DNA from: Kosakonia sacchari
GTDB lineage: Bacteria > Pseudomonadota > Gammaproteobacteria > Enterobacterales > Enterobacteriaceae
Assembly: GCA_900109485.1 (NCBI GenBank)
Contig: FOAY01000002.1
Span: 20,392 to 84,391 of the forward strand
DNA: 64,000 bases
Direction of reading: 5' to 3'
A program made the position numbers and the translations under genes. Of this stretch, positions 14,014-59,734 are shown in pieces (within the stretch, counting starts at the first letter, position 1; each line of letters begins with the position of its first letter). Below the pieces are notes generated by a model. It worked only from the letters and a program-made list of their open reading frames with translations. It was not told the DNA's origin and made no database searches.

Positions 14014-16458
14014 ATGTCACAAGATCCTTTCCTCGAACGAGAATCTGAAAAATATACCAACCCCATTCCCAGCCGCGAATTTATCCTCGATCACTTAGCC
14101 AAACGCGAAAAACCAGCCAGCCGTGATGAACTGGCGGTTGAACTGAAAATCGAAGGCGAAGAACAAAATGAAGCGCTGCGCCGTCGTTTGCGCGCCATGG
14201 AGCGTGACGGTCAACTGGTGTTCACCCGCCGTCAGTGCTACGCCTTACCGGAAAGGCTGGACCTGCTGAAAGGTGTGGTGATCGGCCACCGCGACGGCTA
14301 TGGCTTCCTGCGCGTCGAAGGGCGTAAAGACGATCTTTACCTCTCCAGCGAGCAGATGAAAACCTGCATCCACGGCGACCAGGTGCTGGCGCAGCCGCTG
14401 GGTGCCGATCGCAAAGGCCGCCGCGAAGCGCGTATCGTACGTATTCTGGTGCCCAAAACCGGGCAAATTGTTGGCCGTTACTTCACCGATGCTGGCGTCG
14501 GTTTTGTGGTGCCGGACGACAGCCGCATGAGCTTTGACATCCTGATTCCGCCGGAAGAAACCATGAGCGCGCGCATGGGCTTTGTGGTGGTGGTGGAGTT
14601 AACCCAGCGTCCGACACGCCGCACCAAAGCACTTGGCAAGATTGTTGAAGTGCTCGGCGACAACATGGGTACCGGCATGGCCGTCGATATGGCGCTGCGC
14701 ACCCATGAAATTCCTTACCAGTGGCCGCCTGAAGTTGAAAAACAGATTGCCGGGCTGAAAGAGCAAGTTCCGGAAGAGGCAAAAGCGGGACGTGTGGATC
14801 TGCGCGATCTGCCGCTGGTCACCATCGATGGCGAAGACGCCCGCGATTTCGACGACGCTGTCTATTGCGAGAAAAAACGCGGCGGTGGCTGGCGTTTGTG
14901 GGTGGCAATTGCCGATGTGAGCTATTACGTGCGCCACGGAACGCCGCTCGACAACGAAGCGCGCAACCGTGGCACATCGGTGTACTTCCCGTCGCAGGTC
15001 GTGCCTATGCTGCCGGAAGTGCTCTCAAACGGTCTCTGTTCGCTCAACCCGCAGGTGGATCGCCTGTGTATGGTCTGCGAAATGACCGTCTCGACGAAAG
15101 GCCGTTTAACCGGTTTTAAATTCTACGAAGCGGTGATGAGCTCCCATGCGCGTCTGACCTACACCAAAGTGTGGCATATGTTGCAGGGCGATCAGGAGCT
15201 GCGCGAGCAGTATGCGCCGCTGGTGAAACATATCGAAGAGTTGCATAACCTCTACAAAGTGCTCGACCAGGCGCGTGCTGAACGCGGCGGCATCTCGTTT
15301 GAGAGTGAAGAAGCGAAGTTTATCTTCAACGCCGAGCGCCGTATTGAACGCATCGAACAGACTCAGCGTAACGATGCGCACAAACTGATTGAAGAGTGCA
15401 TGATCCTCGCCAACATCTCGGCAGCGCGCTTCGTCGAGAAGGCCAACGAACCGGCGCTGTTCCGTATTCACGATAAACCGACCACCGATGCGATCACCGC
15501 ATTTCGTTCCGTGCTCGCCGAGCTGGGGCTGGAACTGCCGGGCGGCAACAAACCGGAACCGCGCGATTATGCCGAGTTGCTGGAGTCGATTGCCGATCGT
15601 CCCGATCACGAGATGCTGCAAACTATGCTGCTGCGCTCGATGAAACAGGCGATTTACGATCCGGAAAACCGGGGTCACTTCGGGCTGGCGCTGCAATCCT
15701 ATGCGCACTTTACGTCGCCGATCCGCCGTTATCCGGACTTGTCATTGCACCGCGCCATTAAGTATCTGCTGGCGAAAGAGCAGGGGCTGAAGGGCAACAG
15801 CACAGAAACCGGCGGCTGGCACTACAGCATGGAAGAGGTGCTGCAACTGGGCCAGCACTGTTCGATGACCGAACGCCGCGCAGATGAAGCCACCCGCGAA
15901 GTGTCGGACTGGCTGAAGTGCGATTTCATGCAGGATCAGGTGGGCAACACCTTCCCGGGCGTTATCGCCAGCGTCACCGGCTTCGGTTTCTTTGTGCGCC
16001 TGAACGATCTGTTTATCGATGGTCTGGTGCATGTCTCCTCGCTGGACAACGACTATTACCGTTTTGACCAGATTGGTCAGCGCCTGATTGGCGAATCCGG
16101 CGGGCAAACCTATCGCCTCGGCGATCGGGTGGAAGTGAAGGTTGAAGCCGTCAATATGGATGAGCGTAAGATCGACTTCTCGCTGATCTCCAGCGAACGC
16201 GCGCCGCGCAATGTCGGTAAAACCGAGCGTGAAAGAACGAAAAAAGGCGCTGCGGGTAAAAACGTTGGCGGTAAAAAGCCACCGCGTCGGCAGATGGGGA
16301 AAAAGGTGAATTTTGAGCCGGACAGTGCCTTCCGCGGTGATGCCGCAGGCAAAGGTAAAAGCAAAGCGAAAAAAGCCAAAAACCCCTCGGCAAAAACGCA
16401 AAAAATAGCCGCAGCCACCAAAGCTAAACGCGCGGCGAAAAAGAAAGTCGAGCAGTAA
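14014..16458 (+). CDS. rnr: Exoribonuclease R (RNase R)
   Basis: A processive 3'-5' exoribonuclease that degrades structured RNA, rRNA and, with SmpB/tmRNA, mRNA of stalled ribosomes. 814 residues. It has an N-terminal helix-turn-helix region, two cold-shock domains (about 85-240), the RNB catalytic domain with metal ligands Asp272, Asp278 and Asp280 in [11 protein letters not shown], an S1 domain (about 645-725) and a Lys-rich C-terminal tail. The start was set at [10 protein letters not shown] with a strong CGGAGG ribosome-binding site; the frame is open 14 codons upstream, into the nsrR stop. In E. coli rlmB follows directly; here 4.6 kb of other genes intervene. Confidence 0.97.
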
Positions 16459-16466
16459 TATCCGCG

Positions 16467-16497
16467 AAGCCCTTCCACTGTGAAGGGCTTTTTTTAT
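16467..16497 (+). terminator. Rho-independent terminator after rnr
   Basis: The stem AGCCCTTC / GAAGGGCT with a CACT-type loop is followed by seven T. It marks the end of the nsrR-rnr unit and the left edge of the accessory block. Confidence 0.85.
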
Positions 16498-16643
16498 GGC
16501 TTAGTTATTTCCTGCACATCGATATTTATTATTTATCGTTAGCCTGCGAACACAGATCTATATAGTAAATATCCATCTCGTATTTACCGAATTAAAACCG
16601 TGGCATTTCGCTTCGGTTGGTCTCTGTTTTCCAAGGAGCGATT

Positions 16644-17660
16644 ATGCATCTGGCCCGTTTTCCCCGCCTGTCATTAGGTCATTTCCCGACGCCGTTAGAA
16701 CCGCTGGAGAATTTAAGCGCGCTGCTGGGCGGTCCCAAAATATGGATCAAACGCGATGACGCTACCGGTCTGGCGACGGGCGGCAATAAAACCCGCAAGC
16801 TGGAATTTTTGCTGGCGGATGCGCTGGCGAAAAACGCAGACGTGATTATTACTCAGGGCGCAACGCAGTCGAACCACGTCCGGCAAACCATTGCTGGCGC
16901 TGCGAAACTCGGGCTGGCAAGCAAAGTGCTGCTGGAAAAACGCGTCACCGATTTTGGTGAAGATTATCAGCGCTCTGGCAACATCCTGCTGGATGAGTTG
17001 CTGGGCGGCGAAATTGTCGCGCATCTGCCGGGCGGCACGGATATGCAAAAAGCGATGGAAGAGTATGCCGAACAGCTGCGCGAGCAGGGGCATCGCCCGT
17101 ATGTCATCCCCGGCGGCGGCTCCAACGCCATCGGCGCGCTGGGTTATGTTGCTTGCGCCGAAGAGCTGTTATTCCAGTCCTCACAGTTACGGCTACGCAT
17201 CGATCATGTCGTCCACGCGACCGGCAGCACCGGGACGCAAGCAGGGCTGGTGGCAGGTTTCACCGCCACTAATAGCCATGTGCCGGTGCTGGGCATCAGC
17301 GTCCGCGCGCCGAAAGCGAAGCAGGAAGAGAACGTCTGGAACCTGGCATCACGTACGCGCGAACTGCTGGGCGTGGCGGGCGATCTGCCACGTGAAGCGG
17401 TAGCCGCCAATAGCGATTACGTCGGTGATGGTTACGGTTTGCCGACAGAAGGCATGCTGGAAGCGCTGACGCTGTTTGCCCGCCATGAAGGCATTTTGCT
17501 CGACCCGGTTTATTCCGGTAAAGGTGCCGCCGGGCTTATTGATCTGATTCGCAAAGGCTACTTCACGCATGACGAGAATGTAGTGTTTATCCACACCGGC
17601 GGCTCAGCCGGGCTATTCGGTTACCGCCAGGTGCTGGAGGCGCATGCCCGCCATGGCTAA
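16644..17660 (+). CDS. PLP-dependent lyase of the D-cysteine desulfhydrase / L-cysteate sulfo-lyase family
   Basis: A fold-type II PLP enzyme of 338 residues in the family that includes DcyD (D-cysteine to pyruvate, sulfide and ammonia), CuyA (L-cysteate to pyruvate, sulfite and ammonia) and ACC deaminase. The PLP lysine is Lys49 in [10 protein letters not shown], and the following QSNHVRQT (75-82) and LDPVYSGKG loops are the family's substrate and cofactor contacts. The start is the ATG after AAGGAG (16633-16638). The next gene overlaps by 17 bp and encodes a racemase-family protein, and a sulfonate-type ABC transporter follows. DcyD is normally paired with a cystine transporter, so this context favours a sulfonated amino acid such as cysteate (inference). 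Exact substrate unproven. Confidence 0.85.
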
Positions 17661-18405
17661 ACCCTTCTTACTGGGCGTGCTGGGCGGCATGGGGCCGCTC
17701 GCCACGCTCGATTTTCAGCACAAGCTGTTACAGGCGACGCCTGCCGATAGCGACCAGCAGCAACTGCCGTCGGTGGTGTGGAACGTGCCGCAAATCGCCG
17801 ATCGGCAAAAAGCGCTGGCCGGGCTGGGGCCATCGCCGCTGCCGCAGTTGCTTCGGGGAATTGAAAAGCTTAATCAGGCGGGCGCCAGCCATATCGCTAT
17901 TCCCTGCAACACCGCGCATCACTGGTATGACGAACTCAGCCGCGCCAGCAACGCGCCGTTGTTGCACATTGTGGATGCCACCATGGCGTCGCTGGCGAAT
18001 TTAGCGCACAGACCTCAGCGGGTTGGGTTGATTGCCACGCAAGGCACGCTGGATGCGGGTTGGTATCAGCAGCGCCTGGCACAGCAGGGAATTGAGGTGC
18101 TGCTGCCGAATGACGATGAACTGCAACAGTGGTTTGTGCCCGGCTGTTATGCTGTGAAGCGCGGCGCACTGCGTGAGGGCGGTGAATTGCTGGCAAAGCA
18201 GGCAAATGCGTTACTGACGCGCGGCGCGCAACAGTTGATTCTGGCTTGTACCGAAGTGCCGGTTGCGCTGGAAGCGATTGCCGCGCCGTTTCTCGCACAA
18301 ACCTGCGATCCGTCACAGGCGCTGGCGCAGCAGTGCGCGCAAATCTGGCTCGATTATCGCCATTCTTATTCCACGTATATCCAACGCAATAATTCGAATA
18401 AATAA
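17644..18405 (+). CDS. Aspartate/glutamate racemase family protein
   Basis: A cofactor-independent racemase-type protein of 253 residues with the two-Cys arrangement of the family: IPCNTAHHW (about 82-90) and LACTEVP (about 199-205). [14 protein letters not shown] near the N-terminus is the conserved substrate loop. It overlaps the lyase gene by 17 bp. The start is 17644 or the ATG at 17653; the GGAGG at 17636-17640 lies between their ideal spacings. In context it may interconvert D and L forms of the amino acid used by the lyase (inference), for example cysteate, a structural analogue of aspartate. A plain aspartate racemase is the alternative. Confidence 0.85.
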
Positions 18406-18461
18406 AAGCGCCGCCTGTCGATATAGTAGTTCGGCGCTAATAACCTCCAGGATTAAATAAC

Positions 18462-19466
18462 ATGAAAAAAAGTCTCTGCTTATTACTGGCAGCGGGTAGT
18501 TTATGGCTAAATACCAGCGTTGCCGCTACACCAGCCGAAGTGCGCGTCGCTTATAGCGGCGGTTCCCAGGTATTAATGTTGGCGAAAGCCGATGGTTCGC
18601 TGGATAAAGCCTTAAACACGAAAGTTCAGTGGGTGCAATTCGCCTCCGGCGCGGATGCGCTCAGCTATTTCGCCAGCAATGCTATCGATATTGCCAATTT
18701 CGGTTCCAGCCCGGCCACGGCCGGTATTGTGCGTAAATTACCCGTGGAAATTATCGGCGTTTCCGGCGTGATTGCCAGCTACGAACGTTTAATTGGCAAA
18801 GACGGCATTAAAACGCTGCGTGATATTGAAGGGAAACGCGTGGCTTATCCGCCAAATTCGACGGCGCAATATGCGCTGGAAGCCGCGATCAGCGTGAATA
18901 AACTCGACCGCAGCAAAATTACCTTGCTGCCGCTGCGTCCGGCGGAAATGGTGGCGGCCTGGAAACGCGGCGATATCGATGCCGGTTACGTCTGGGCGCC
19001 GTTTGCCCAGGAGCTGGAATCCTCCGGTGGCCATCAGGTCTTTGCCACCAAAGATCTGCAAAAAGAGGGCTACCTGATTTACAACAATTACGTGGTGCGC
19101 AAAGCCTTTGCTGAGCAGTACCCGGAAGCGGTGACCGCTTTCCTGCGCGTACACCAGCAGAAAGTGGATGAGTTCAAAAAGGATCCTGAACGCGCCGCCG
19201 CGATTGTGGCAAAAGAGGTCGGCGCGCCGGTGACTACCGCCGCCAATACCCTCGGCGGGCTGGAGTATCCCACGTTAAGCGAGCAGGGTACTGCTGCGTG
19301 GCTGGGTAACGGCACGCAAACCAGCGAGAGCGGCATCGGCAAGGCGCTGAGCAAAACCTCGAACTTCCTCGCCGGAATTGGCGAAATCCGCAAACGCGAT
19401 ATCCCGGCGAACTGGGATAGCGCCATCGACTCGCGCTACATCCGCGAGGCAGCAGCCGCAAAATGA
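18462..19466 (+). CDS. Taurine/sulfonate-type ABC transporter, periplasmic binding protein
   Basis: 334 residues: a signal peptide (about 1-22, ending VAA) followed by an NMT1/SsuA-TauA-type binding domain. Segments typical of TauA are FASGADALSYFASNAIDIAN, NFGSSPATAG and AWKRGDIDAGYVWAPFAQEL. It is only moderately similar to E. coli TauA, so the ligand may differ; no taurine dioxygenase (tauD) is nearby. It shares a 4-bp ATGA overlap with the permease gene and lies 56 bp after the racemase, so all five genes probably form one operon. Confidence 0.85.
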   Translation: MKKSLCLLLAAGSLWLNTSVAATPAEVRVAYSGGSQVLMLAKADGSLDKALNTKVQWVQFASGADALSYFASNAIDIANFGSSPATAGIVRKLPVEIIGVSGVIASYERLIGKDGIKTLRDIEGKRVAYPPNSTAQYALEAAISVNKLDRSKITLLPLRPAEMVAAWKRGDIDAGYVWAPFAQELESSGGHQVFATKDLQKEGYLIYNNYVVRKAFAEQYPEAVTAFLRVHQQKVDEFKKDPERAAAIVAKEVGAPVTTAANTLGGLEYPTLSEQGTAAWLGNGTQTSESGIGKALSKTSNFLAGIGEIRKRDIPANWDSAIDSRYIREAAAAK

Positions 19467-20233
19467 AACTGCGTCAACATATCGCCATCAGCGTGCTGTC
19501 GGTGGCGGTCTTCTTTGTGATTTGGCAAGTGGCGGCCACCCGGCAATGGGTGGACCCGCTGTTGTTACCTTCGCTGACCGACATTGGGCTGACCGCCGAA
19601 GAGCTGCTGGCGGACGGTTACCGCCAGGTTCCGCTGTGGCAGCACGTCGCTGTCAGCCTGGCGCGAGCGCTGAGCGCTTTTGCGGTGGCGATTGCTATCG
19701 GTATCCCGCTGGGTTTGTTGATGGGCTTATCCGACGGTCTTTCCGCGGTGCTCAACCCGTTTGTGCAGTTCCTGCGCCCGCTACCGAAGATTGCGCTGAT
19801 CCCGCTGGCGGTGGTCTGGCTGGGGATTGGTGAAGCGTCGAAATTCTTTCTGATCTTTATCGCCACCTTTTTAAGCGTGGTCGTCGGTGCCAGCGCGGCG
19901 GTGGAACGCATCGGTCGCGCACGCATTCGCGTCGCGCAAACGCTGGGGGCATCGAAAAGACAGATCTTTTTGCGCGTGGTGCTACCGGATGCATTGCCGG
20001 AGTTGTTTACCACCGTGCGCCTTTCGATTGGTATTGGCTGGACATCGCTGATCGCCGCCGAAATGGTCGCCGCCAGTTCCGGCCTCGGCTGGATGGTGAT
20101 CAACGCCAGCTCTTATTTACGTACGGACATTGTCATGCTTGGCATTCTTCTGCTGGGCGGCATTGGTTACTTACTGGATTTATTACTGTTAGGGCTACAA
20201 CGCGGTCTGGTGCCCTGGGCGGGGAAAGAGTGA
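19463..20233 (+). CDS. Taurine/sulfonate-type ABC transporter, permease
   Basis: 256 residues, predicted to have about six membrane spans. The BPD_transp_1 domain ends with the EAA-type loop (RIRVAQTLGASKRQIFLRVVLPDALPEL reduced to its core AQTLGASKRQIF...LPDALP) that docks on the ATPase. It is related to TauC/SsuC. The start overlaps the binding-protein stop (ATGA), and the stop overlaps the ATPase start (GTGATGA region). The order binding protein, permease, ATPase differs from E. coli tauABC. Confidence 0.85.
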   Translation: MKLRQHIAISVLSVAVFFVIWQVAATRQWVDPLLLPSLTDIGLTAEELLADGYRQVPLWQHVAVSLARALSAFAVAIAIGIPLGLLMGLSDGLSAVLNPFVQFLRPLPKIALIPLAVVWLGIGEASKFFLIFIATFLSVVVGASAAVERIGRARIRVAQTLGASKRQIFLRVVLPDALPELFTTVRLSIGIGWTSLIAAEMVAASSGLGWMVINASSYLRTDIVMLGILLLGGIGYLLDLLLLGLQRGLVPWAGKE

Positions 20234-21012
20234 TGACGGCACAAATCGCGCTGGAAAATGTTTCGCTGACGTTTGCGGCAAAACCGCAACCGTTCACGGT
20301 GCTGGAGGATATCTCGCTGGCGCTGGCGCCGGGGGAATTTGTTGTGCTACTTGGCCCCTCCGGCTGCGGTAAATCCACCATTCTCAACCTGGTTGCCGGG
20401 TTTACCCGACCCGATAGCGGGCAGGTTCTGGCGGCCGGAAAAACGGTGAGCCAGCCTGGACCGTCGCGCGGCATGATCTTCCAGCAGCCGAACCTGTTTC
20501 CGTGGTTATCGGTGCTGGATAACGTGACGTTCGGCCCGCGGCTCGGTAAATACCGCAAAGAAGAGGTTAACGCCCAGGCGCTGGACTGGCTGGCGCGCGT
20601 GGGGCTGAAAGGTTTTGAACACCATGCGCCGTGGCAGCTTTCCGGCGGGATGAAACAACGTGTCGCGCTGGCGCGCGCCTGGCTGCCCGGCCCGGATGTG
20701 CTGCTGCTCGATGAGCCGTTTGGCGCGCTGGATGCGCAAACCCGGCTGATGATGCAGGAACTGCTGCGCAGCGCCTGGCTGGAAACGCGCACCACGCTGC
20801 TATTCGTGACGCACGATGTGGATGAAGCGCTGTTTCTCGCCGACCGTATTCTGATCATGTCAGCGCGCCCCGGCAAAATCGTCGAAGAGATTTCTCTGCC
20901 GTTTGGCCGCGATCGCGATATCGAAACCCTCGCTGGCGATCCGCATTATGGCGAGATCAAGCAGCACGTGCTGCATCGCGTACGGCTGGAGGCGAAACGG
21001 CATCTGAGTTAG
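20230..21012 (+). CDS. Taurine/sulfonate-type ABC transporter, ATP-binding protein
   Basis: 260 residues with a complete ABC ATPase core: Walker A GPSGCGKST (about 43-51), Q-loop (FQQPNLFPW), signature LSGGMKQR, Walker B VLLLDEPFGALD and the H-loop VTHDVDEAL. It is related to TauB/SsuB. The gene overlaps the permease stop by 4 bp. It is the last gene of the accessory block; rlmB starts 99 bp downstream. Confidence 0.88.
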   Translation: MMTAQIALENVSLTFAAKPQPFTVLEDISLALAPGEFVVLLGPSGCGKSTILNLVAGFTRPDSGQVLAAGKTVSQPGPSRGMIFQQPNLFPWLSVLDNVTFGPRLGKYRKEEVNAQALDWLARVGLKGFEHHAPWQLSGGMKQRVALARAWLPGPDVLLLDEPFGALDAQTRLMMQELLRSAWLETRTTLLFVTHDVDEALFLADRILIMSARPGKIVEEISLPFGRDRDIETLAGDPHYGEIKQHVLHRVRLEAKRHLS

Positions 21013-21111: not shown

Positions 21112-21846
21112 ATGAGTGAAATGATTTACGGCATCCATGCGGTGCAGGCACTGCTGGAGCGCGCCCCGGAGCGTTTTCAGGAAGTCTTTATTCTGAAAGG
21201 CCGCGAAGACAAACGTCTGCTGCCGCTGATCCATGCGCTGGAAGCGCAGGGCGTGGTGATCCAGGTGGCGAATCGCCAGTATCTGGATGAGAAAAGCGAA
21301 GGCGCGGTGCATCAGGGGATCATTGCACGGGTGAAACCAGGGCGTCAGTATCAGGAGAACGATCTGCCGGATCTGATCGCCAGCCTCGATCAACCGTTCC
21401 TGCTGATCCTTGATGGCGTTACCGATCCGCATAATCTTGGCGCCTGTTTGCGCAGTGCAGATGCGGCAGGCGTTCACGCGGTGATCGTGCCGAAAGACAA
21501 ATCCGCCCAGTTGAATGCGACCGCGAAAAAAGTGGCGTGCGGCGCAGCGGAAAACGTTCCGCTGATCCGCGTCACCAACCTTGCGCGCACCATGCGCCAG
21601 CTGCAGGAAGAGAATATCTGGATCGTTGGCACCGCCGGTGAAGCGGACCACACTCTGTTCCAGAGCAAAATGACCGGGCCGATGGCGCTGGTAATGGGCG
21701 CGGAAGGCGAAGGTATGCGCCGCCTGACGCGCGAACACTGCGATGAGCTGATCAGCATTCCGATGGCGGGCAGCGTTTCATCGCTGAACGTCTCAGTGGC
21801 GACCGGCATCTGCCTGTTTGAAGCGGTGCGCCAGCGCGCGCTTTAA
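21112..21846 (+). CDS. rlmB: 23S rRNA 2'-O-methyltransferase RlmB (Gm2251)
   Basis: Methylates the ribose of G2251 in the peptidyl-transferase P loop of 23S rRNA with S-adenosylmethionine. 244 residues. An N-terminal substrate-binding domain (about 1-75) is followed by a SPOUT knot with [23 protein letters not shown] and [11 protein letters not shown] as the three SpoU motifs. The start [12 protein letters not shown] matches E. coli. In E. coli it is co-transcribed with rnr; here the accessory block separates them, so it probably depends on read-through or its own promoter. Confidence 0.97.
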
Positions 21847-58231: not shown

Positions 58232-59734
58232 ATGAACGCGGAAGCACACCAGGAAATCCTGCGTACCGAAGGCTTAAGTAAATTCTTTCCCGGCGTAAAA
58301 GCGCTCGATAACGTGGATTTCAGCCTGCGGCGTGGCGAGATCATGGCGCTGCTTGGGGAAAACGGCGCCGGGAAATCAACGCTGATTAAAGCGTTAACCG
58401 GCGTTTATCATGCGGATAAAGGGGCTATCTGGCTGGAAGGTCAGCAGATCAATCCCAAAAACACCGCCCATGCACAGCAGCTCGGCATTGGTACCGTGTA
58501 CCAGGAAGTAAACCTGCTGCCGAATATGTCGGTGGCGGACAACTTATTTATTGGCCGCGAACCGCGGCGTTTTGGTCTGCTGCGCCGTAAAGAGATGGAA
58601 AAACGTGCGACCGATCTGATGGCATCTTACGGTTTTTCGCTGGATGTGCGCGAGCCGCTCAACCGTTTTTCGGTGGCGATGCAACAGATCGTCGCGATCT
58701 GCCGCGCCATCGATCTGTCAGCCAAAGTGCTGATCCTCGATGAACCGACCGCCAGCCTGGATACCCAGGAAGTGGAGATGCTGTTTACGCTGATGCGCCA
58801 GCTTCGCGACCAGGGCGTCAGCCTGATTTTCGTCACCCACTTTCTCGATCAGGTTTATGAAGTCAGCGATCGCATTACCGTGCTGCGTAACGGCGGTTTT
58901 GTTGGCTGTCGCGAAACCCGCGAGCTGCCGCAAATCGAGCTGGTGAAAATGATGCTGGGCCGCGAACTGGACAGCAGCGCGCTTCAGCGCGCCGGACGTA
59001 CGCTGTTGAGCGATAAACCGGTTGCGGCGTTCAGCGGCTTTGGCAAAAAAGGCGTTATCGCGCCGTTTGATCTGGAAGTTCGCCCCGGCGAAATCGTCGG
59101 CCTGGCCGGGCTGCTGGGTTCCGGGCGCACCGAAACCGCCGAAGTGATTTTTGGCATCAAACCCGCCGACAGCGGCAGCGCGATCATCAAAGGTAAGAGC
59201 CAGACACTCCGTTCTCCGCACCAGGCTTCGTGCCTGGGAATCGGTTTTTGCCCGGAAGATCGCAAAACCGACGGCATCATCGCGGCGGCCTCCGTACGTG
59301 AAAACATTGTGCTGGCGTTGCAGGCGCAGCGCGGCTGGCTGCGGCCGATTTCGCGCAAAGAACAAAACGCGATTGCCGAGCGCTTCATCCGCCAGTTGGG
59401 GATCCGCACGCCGAGCGCCGAGCAGCCGATTGAGTTTCTCTCCGGCGGCAACCAGCAAAAAGTGCTGCTCTCGCGCTGGCTGCTGACCCGGCCTCAATTT
59501 CTGATCCTCGATGAACCGACGCGCGGTATCGACGTCGGCGCGCACGCTGAGATCATTCGTCTGATTGAAACCCTCTGCGCCGATGGTCTGGCGCTGCTGG
59601 TTATCTCCTCTGAACTGGAGGAGCTGGTGGGCTATGCGGATCGCGTGATCATCATGCGCGATCGCAAACAGGTGGCGGAGATCCCGCTCGCAGAGCTGTC
59701 GGTTCCGGCGATCATGAATGCCATTGCGGCGTAA
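58232..59734 (+). CDS. ytfR: Galactofuranose ABC transporter, ATP-binding protein YtfR
   Basis: 500 residues with two fused ABC ATPase domains of the sugar (RbsA/MglA) type. The first has Walker A GENGAGKST (about 42-50) and Walker B LILDEPTASLD, with a degenerate signature (FSVAMQQ). The second has a degenerate Walker A (GLLGSGRTE) and a good signature LSGGNQQK with Walker B LILDEPTRGID. It is 54 bp after ytfQ and 10 bp before ytfT. Confidence 0.96.
   Translation: MNAEAHQEILRTEGLSKFFPGVKALDNVDFSLRRGEIMALLGENGAGKSTLIKALTGVYHADKGAIWLEGQQINPKNTAHAQQLGIGTVYQEVNLLPNMSVADNLFIGREPRRFGLLRRKEMEKRATDLMASYGFSLDVREPLNRFSVAMQQIVAICRAIDLSAKVLILDEPTASLDTQEVEMLFTLMRQLRDQGVSLIFVTHFLDQVYEVSDRITVLRNGGFVGCRETRELPQIELVKMMLGRELDSSALQRAGRTLLSDKPVAAFSGFGKKGVIAPFDLEVRPGEIVGLAGLLGSGRTETAEVIFGIKPADSGSAIIKGKSQTLRSPHQASCLGIGFCPEDRKTDGIIAAASVRENIVLALQAQRGWLRPISRKEQNAIAERFIRQLGIRTPSAEQPIEFLSGGNQQKVLLSRWLLTRPQFLILDEPTRGIDVGAHAEIIRLIETLCADGLALLVISSELEELVGYADRVIIMRDRKQVAEIPLAELSVPAIMNAIAA

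Follow-up and report, generated by a model that had tools for sequence, protein, structure and literature searches.

The five genes located between rnr and rlmB in the analyzed window (the whole stretch of 64,000 nucleotides of Kosakonia sacchari DNA) very probably form a cysteate-scavenging operon, whose predicted functions are import, racemization, and cleavage to sulfite. The initial annotation had proposed the same sequence of steps, and the computed evidence strengthens this reading: membership of the two enzymes in the CuyA and CuyB families is indicated by scores over the model cut-offs, the lyase groups with CuyA, the binding protein lacks Asp205 of TauA, no TauD was found, and the importer is linked to and co-occurs with the lyase; the gene order and a promoter-like element were also computed. 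The biochemistry of CuyB and CuyA is already in print (PMC11382572), and the idea is not new. What is new here is that linkage and co-occurrence tie a dedicated importer to CuyA and CuyB, and thus an enterobacterial transporter that is taurine-importer-like but distinct to a specific sulfur compound. No enterobacterial TauACB-type cysteate importer appeared among the literature matches listed, as far as titles and the beginnings of abstracts tell; the original paper on cysteate racemase (J. Biol. Chem. 2024, 300, 107371) may describe one.

Gene organization and upstream region

The five reading frames, located at 16644-21012 as first noted, are all open and run in one direction (plus strand). 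The block starts with cuyA (16644..17660; 338 aa), encoding a predicted PLP-dependent D-cysteate sulfo-lyase, and cuyB (17653..18405; 250 aa), encoding a predicted cysteate racemase. They are followed by the genes of a periplasmic sulfonate-type binding protein that would bind cysteate (18462..19466; 334 aa), a TauC-like ABC permease (19463..20233), and a TauB-like ABC ATPase (20233..21012). The overlaps between cuyA and cuyB (8 nt; cuyB could also start from an in-frame ATG at 17644), between the binding protein and permease genes (4 nt), and between the permease and ATPase genes (1 nt) agree with the earlier description of an overlapping lyase-racemase pair and a transporter in operon spacing. 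The flanking genes are rnr upstream (end at 16458; NF008648 over cut-off) and rlmB downstream (start at 21112; NF008386 over cut-off), which we take to be adjacent in E. coli.

A terminator-like hairpin (16466..16491, plus strand) between rnr and the block is backed by its position and not by the terminator scan, which returned 5 terminator-like sites versus 6.1 expected from shuffles, i.e., no excess. Alignment of the window with 22 rnr-adjacent relatives revealed a conserved element upstream of cuyA (16500..16566, plus strand), composed of a conserved stretch (16500-16538), a weak -35-like TTAGCC (16539-16544), and TATAGT (16561-16566). This element is visible by comparison only, being absent from the sites of a plain sigma-70 scan (3 promoter-like sites versus 2.2 expected). 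It is likely an activator-dependent promoter, for which CysB or Cbl was considered as the candidate activator.

Lyase and racemase

The lyase scores 556.1 bits with the curated NCBIfam model of CuyA (NF052482, cut-off 450) and shares 60% identity with CuyA of R. pomeroyi versus 47-48% with DcyD. In a 28-row tree, calculated without an ACC deaminase outgroup and containing two long branches (L151 and L152), the 23 CuyA rows, including R. pomeroyi CuyA, form one group with support of 94/96, just below the tree tool's own star, and 4 DcyD-like rows stand apart from them (99/99). Thus, the protein first assigned to a common DcyD/CuyA family sides with R. pomeroyi CuyA. The PLP lysine (Lys49) and the active-site serine (Ser76) are both present, their roles being presumably those of the ACC deaminase residues. 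The closest solved structure, 7ysk, is deposited as a D-cysteine desulfhydrase, and near relatives on plasmids carry the same annotation; the data suggest that 7ysk, despite its deposited name, is a CuyA from this type of operon.

The curated NCBIfam model of CuyB (NF052483) gives 269 bits for the racemase, with a cut-off of 190. Cys85 and Cys199 are situated in the two racemase motifs, in line with the original description of a two-cysteine protein of the Asp/Glu racemase family; there are three further cysteines. According to PMC11382572, L- and D-cysteate are converted into each other by CuyB, and the D-isomer is the one favored by CuyA.

Importer and its association with the enzymes

Of the named models, TauA, TauC, and TauB give the three transporter genes their highest scores, although each score falls short of the respective cut-off (TauA 179/304, TauB 255/357, and TauC 224/342 bits), and the importer is also below the Ssu cut-offs. 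Compared with TauA, the binding protein has retained Gly61, Gly79, Glu106, Thr132, and Trp176, whereas Gln30 is replaced by Ser and Asp205 by Asn (Asn208 in the window protein), the latter replacement being found in 6/6 aligned orthologs. In TauA, Asp205 holds the amine of taurine, as given, along with the roles of other pocket residues, in PMC6906117. The TauD family (PF02668) was detected in none of the 14 genomes of the genus, this one included, with a positive E. coli control; together with the replaced Asp205, this bears out the argument against taurine that had been drawn from the missing tauD. The companion statement that no ssuD-type oxygenase is present holds within the window and fails genus-wide, since an SsuD match occurs in 14/14 genomes (in this genome split into two adjoining pieces, neither of which reaches the cut-off).

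Among 198 genomes of the family, the binding protein was found in 21, CuyA in 26, and both in 21 (p = 6e-24, a value that ignores shared descent and comes from a sample including the window's genome); the two genes lie apart in 3 of the 21 genomes having both. All five family genomes that possess CuyA and lack this binding protein have a second binding protein near cuyAB. Both cuyA and cuyB are present within 6-kb flanks in 44/52 loci with a full-length binding protein. This count leaves out five loci with partial or distant binding proteins (L141-L145), of which L143 (broken pieces) and L145 match cuyA and cuyB, and L144 encodes a 32% identical relative beside an ssuD gene. In six loci, the importer is flanked by neither cuyA nor cuyB; five of these loci belong to genomes in which CuyA is over the cut-off elsewhere, and in one of the five (L126) the contig ends 604 bases upstream of the importer. 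The importer is present in Tatumella (L119), where neither CuyA nor CuyB exceeds the cut-off, and, along with CuyB, in Providencia (L137), where CuyA does not.

History of the rnr-rlmB site

The block had been described at first as an insertion between rnr and rlmB. A recent insertion in this strain is not supported as the main account, given the rnr-adjacent relatives and the remnants in other genomes. The block adjoins rnr in 22/52 loci with a full-length binding protein, and within the genus six of the 14 genomes besides the window's have it in the rnr-rlmB interval, the other eight being without it. Two of these eight retain remnants: G007 still has fragments of cuyA and the ATPase gene's end, and G009 a part of the ATPase gene. 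The rnr-rlmB spacing is about 150-475 bp in four of the 14 genomes (G005, G012, G013, and G014); DNA comparison yielded no match to the block's genes in the last three and, in G005, a match confined to the final 22 nt of the ATPase gene. In G010 and G011 the site is filled by other genes (about 8 kb); these two genomes were searched, outside the DNA comparison of the other genomes, by tblastn at 1e-8 with the five block proteins, giving no match. The first arrival of the block may have occurred by transfer.

Additional modules in related loci

In some relatives the gene row is extended by genes for an M20 amidohydrolase and for an importer of the Opp type, and others have an Ldh2 dehydrogenase along with a second importer near the genes. 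The importer found in the window has Ldh2 and a second binding protein of the sulfonate type in its vicinity in Pectobacterium, Brenneria, and Yersinia alsatica, as well as in some loci of Klebsiella. In the window, tblastn (E 1e-10) with TauD (N-terminal 235 aa), SsuD, the exporter-type neighbor of R. pomeroyi CuyA, and the M20, Opp-type, Ldh2, GldA, and second-importer proteins matched only ABC ATPases, namely, that of the block and another at 58250-59656. Exporter, dehydrogenase, and aminotransferase genes are absent from the five-gene block, so free cysteate as a sulfur source is the simplest reading. We tentatively consider a broader scheme, possible if somewhat doubtful, in which a modular locus for C3-sulfonate salvage in enterobacteria has these five genes as its core, this strain having the minimal version, for free cysteate, at the site studied and the M20/Opp and dehydrogenase/second-importer modules feeding it in relatives. 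If so, M20 and Opp would take up and free peptide- or N-acyl-bound cysteate, e.g., from oxidized thiols or peptides, and the dehydrogenase with the second importer would channel further sulfonates to the racemase and lyase as well.

Alternative interpretations

The co-location of this importer with Ldh2 and a second binding protein leaves room for a different C3-sulfonate as its ligand. The enzymes would then still be CuyA and CuyB, and the importer would mainly carry, e.g., sulfolactate, made into cysteate in the cell. Ldh2 and a second SsuA-family binding protein do occur near the importer or cuyAB in 13/57 loci, and of nine further cuyAB loci (one of them, L167, being the query source) eight have Ldh2 and all nine a second binding protein. 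However, the Ldh2 clusters have a second importer of their own, the five CuyA genomes without the present binding protein all have that second binding protein near cuyAB, the block comprises five genes only, and Ldh2, GldA, and the second binding protein were found neither in the window nor in the 22 rnr-adjacent loci. We regard this alternative as unlikely.

Utilization of D-cysteine (or ACC) by a DcyD-like lyase, a racemase acting on cysteine or aspartate, and a transporter for D-cysteine or a related amino acid is highly improbable. It would accord with the PDB and plasmid annotations, with a score over the cut-off of the broad "D-cysteine desulfhydrase family" model TIGR01275 (320 bits, cut-off 289), and with the additional D-cysteine desulfhydrase activity ascribed to CuyA in PMC10507020. 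Yet the lyase is under the cut-offs of three DcyD-specific models (NF003030, 317/429; NF003032, 289/469; NF003029, 283/610 bits) and of ACC deaminase (TIGR01274, 247 bits versus 392), the importer is sulfonate-type, and the genome encodes a separate DcyD that is 90.6% identical to that of E. coli in the aligned part and has an ABC ATPase close by. Hardly credible is a taurine uptake system that acquired unrelated amino-acid genes: the Tau models rank at the top for the transporter genes, but all three are under cut-off, Asp205 and Gln30 of TauA are replaced, PF02668 is missing from the genus (0/14), and the binding protein occurs only alongside CuyA in the 198 family genomes.

Proposed pathway and comparison with known systems

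In the favored cysteate-scavenging reading, the TauACB-type ABC importer would bring in cysteate (L, D, or both), CuyB would convert the L- and D-isomers into each other, and PLP-dependent CuyA would cleave D-cysteate to pyruvate, ammonia, and sulfite, the last of which would presumably enter the ordinary cysteine pathway. The operon may be regulated by sulfur supply. No step needs oxygen, so the sulfonate would be usable where SsuD/TauD-type oxygenases cannot work. The proposal thus offers enterobacteria a directly testable, oxygen-independent route to sulfur from cysteate.

The lyase belongs to the same tree group as CuyA of R. pomeroyi DSS-3 (SPO_RS20630, NC_006569.1), which we take to be the characterized enzyme, although its database record reads D-cysteine desulfhydrase. 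The gene surroundings differ: R. pomeroyi cuyA is followed by a sulfate-exporter-family gene and has a TRAP transporter upstream and no annotated racemase gene within 8 kb, whereas in the window cuyA adjoins cuyB and an ABC importer, and a tblastn search of the window found no relative of the exporter. The window racemase, encoded beside cuyA, appears to match the CuyB family (NF052483) in score, Asp/Glu racemase membership, and the two cysteine motifs, with no difference found at the sequence level.

Among transporters, E. coli TauABC/TauD shares the three-part ABC architecture and, in part, the sulfonate pocket; the window importer differs in its A-C-B order, scores under the Tau cut-offs, replaced Asp205, and lack of a dioxygenase gene. 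R. pomeroyi cuyTUVW (SPO3040-3043), which consists of four genes, is assigned as a cysteate importer on the basis of mutants in PMC10130141, even though a test with pooled mutants reported there missed it for cysteate. The E. coli tcyJ-dcyD-tcyLN locus likewise places a PLP lyase gene next to an ABC importer, but it is annotated as encoding a cystine importer and D-cysteine desulfhydrase, and the genome studied here has its own DcyD elsewhere.

Composition of the block and identity of the lyase and racemase

Five co-directional genes flanked by rnr and rlmB occupy positions 16644-21012 of the window; their placement in the initial annotation was confirmed by reading the gene coordinates and both flanks. 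The first protein scores 556 bits against the NCBIfam model of the D-cysteate sulfo-lyase CuyA (cut-off 450), and the second 269 bits against that of the cysteate racemase CuyB (cut-off 190). The window CuyA also passes the broad family model TIGR01275 and falls below the specific cut-offs for D-cysteine desulfhydrase (DcyD) and the cut-off for ACC deaminase among the profile models. It is 60% identical to R. pomeroyi SPO_RS20630, which we take to be the characterised CuyA of that organism, as fits its neighboring sulfate-exporter-family gene, and 47-48% identical to DcyD. Phylogenetic placement, proposed earlier as a check, put the lyase on the CuyA side: in a 28-row tree, for which the tool flagged long branches (L151 and L152), 23 CuyA rows form one group (support 94/96, not starred by the tool) and four DcyD-like rows stand apart (99/99). 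The window's genome carries a distinct DcyD gene on another contig. PMC11382572 describes L- and D-cysteate as interconverted by CuyB, with CuyA acting preferentially on the D isomer.

Two related entries were observed. A Pectobacterium CuyA from the same operon type (L124 8616-9620) has a near-identical counterpart in PDB 7ysk, an entry that carries the name D-cysteine desulfhydrase. On the Zymomonas mobilis plasmid pZZM402 (L055 996-4063), a racemase gene overlaps a cuyA-like gene (77% identical), and the pair adjoins genes for an iron-type alcohol dehydrogenase and a PfkB kinase.

Neighboring genes of the block overlap by 8, 4, and 1 nt, and only 56 nt separate cuyB from the gene for the binding protein, which suggests a single transcript. 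Comparison of the window with 22 rnr-adjacent relatives revealed a conserved stretch 78-144 bp before cuyA in the window, although the alignment rows are related to one another, so that conservation is weaker evidence than it appears. The element comprises a weak -35-like TTAGCC, a 16-nt spacer, and TATAGT (commonest form TGTGTATAGT), with a second conserved stretch upstream of it, as would be expected of an activator-dependent promoter.

Association of the importer with CuyA

Within 198 genomes of the family, CuyA was found in 26 and the binding protein (E-value of 1e-90 or better, at least 72% identity) in 21, all 21 inside the 26; the corresponding numbers for 197 genomes of the order are 6 and 3, again with all 3 inside the 6. 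The two samples share members, including the window's genome, and the hypergeometric probabilities (6e-24 and 2e-5, respectively) ignore kinship. In 3 of the 21 genomes (G296, G321, and G350) the two genes lie on different contigs or more than 1 megabase apart.

Named genomes were scanned using an alignment built from seven orthologous binding proteins. This yielded 57 loci, which share at least one genome with the co-occurrence set (G350, with the same contig coordinates as G060). In 52 of them the binding protein matches across 80% or more of its length at an identity of at least 70%. Both cuyA and cuyB occur within the 6-kb flanks of 44 of these 52 loci, preceding the importer in 35 and following it in 9, while two loci have cuyB only and six have neither gene. 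One of these six, L126, is truncated by a contig end close upstream. For five of the six, CuyA passes the cut-off elsewhere in the genome, accompanied by CuyB over cut-off in four and by two CuyB pieces in the fifth; in the sixth, Tatumella, both proteins are missing over cut-off. Providencia burhodogranariea (L137 5929-9272) combines the importer and CuyB without CuyA over cut-off.

History of the site

The block had been regarded as an insertion between rnr and rlmB. All five genes are present between rnr and rlmB in 6 of the 14 other genomes of the genus. Among the eight lacking the block, G007 (L063 1401-1749) retains a short remnant in which the start of cuyA and an internal piece are still present together with the final part of the ATPase gene; in G009 (L065 11842-12391) an ATPase remnant lies between rnr and rlmB. 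Four have short rnr-rlmB spacers, one of which still contains the final 22 nt of the ATPase gene; the remaining two carry approximately 8 kb of other genes. Moreover, rnr lies in the flank of 22 of the 52 loci, including those of Kosakonia, Raoultella, Kluyvera, Enterobacter, Phytobacter, and Trabulsiella. Contigs of K. oryzendophytica and K. quasisacchari carry the block as well. Given these remnants and the shared rnr adjacency, two losses of the block are seen in the genus, and insertion in a single strain is unsupported.

Additional modules

Neither of the two modules described here was found within the 64-kb window. A gene for an M20 amidohydrolase follows the ATPase gene by 21-119 bp on the same strand in 16 of the 57 loci, and in 14 of these OppA-, OppB-, and OppC-like genes come next (L089, L091, L093, L094, L095, L099, L102, L104, L111, L112, L113, L135, L138, and L140); M20 alone is present in L121 and L134. 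G001 (L057) has the same M20-Opp arrangement plus OppD and OppF. At three loci with unlinked cuyAB (L117, L120, and L128), M20-Opp is divergent and upstream of the importer; the M20 match of L120 has only 30% coverage. The L117 M20 protein passes TIGR01891; among solved structures, HmrA and a Xaa-Arg dipeptidase are its closest matches. This extension might give access to peptide- or N-acyl-bound cysteate. Separately, two Pantoea plasmids (L162 2017-11485 and L163 2020-11485) encode an M20 enzyme that shares 72-73% identity with the L117 protein, along with an ABC importer, a GNAT acetyltransferase, and a pair of flavin-dependent monooxygenases; the set resembles Bacillus thioether-salvage operons.

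The second module, present in 13 of the 57 loci, combines a dehydrogenase of the Ldh2 family with a second binding protein, of the SsuA family; a GldA-like gene frequently accompanies them. In nine further cuyAB loci, Ldh2 was found in eight and the second binding protein in all nine (overall, L165-L167, L169-L173, L074, L096, L105, L109, L122-L125, L127, L129, L132, L133, L136, and L145). The second binding protein is also present in all five family genomes that have CuyA and lack the block's binding protein. The Ldh2 of L167 scores 189 bits on the sulfolactate dehydrogenase model (cut-off 500) and passes a malate/lactate model. The module is possibly another C3-sulfonate route.

Comparison with the taurine system and proposed function

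The best named models for the transporter genes are TauA, TauC, and TauB, whose cut-offs are reached by none of the three block proteins. Relative to the taurine contacts of TauA described in PMC6906117, the window binding protein keeps residues equal to Gly61, Gly79, Glu106, Thr132, and Trp176, whereas Gln30 is replaced by Ser32 and Asp205 by Asn208 (positions 55, 84, and 109 were left out owing to a mismatch with precursor numbering). The Asn is present in all six aligned orthologues and the Ser in five, with a gap in G016. The reported lack of a tauD- or ssuD-type oxygenase held for tauD, as TauD (PF02668) was found in none of the 14 genus genomes, but not for ssuD at the genome scale, since all 14 have an SsuD match, over cut-off in 13. 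TauA over cut-off was likewise found in none of the 14. The SsuD of the window's genome appears as two adjoining pieces (G000:C11:385913-386951), which may reflect a sequencing error or decay.

Since the block consists of an importer, a racemase, and a lyase only, free cysteate is the simplest reading of its substrate. The sulfite released by the lyase would more likely be assimilated than excreted, because the block contains no exporter gene. The chemistry of CuyA and CuyB is already established; the present analysis contributes the link between this importer and CuyA, together with a modular view of the locus.
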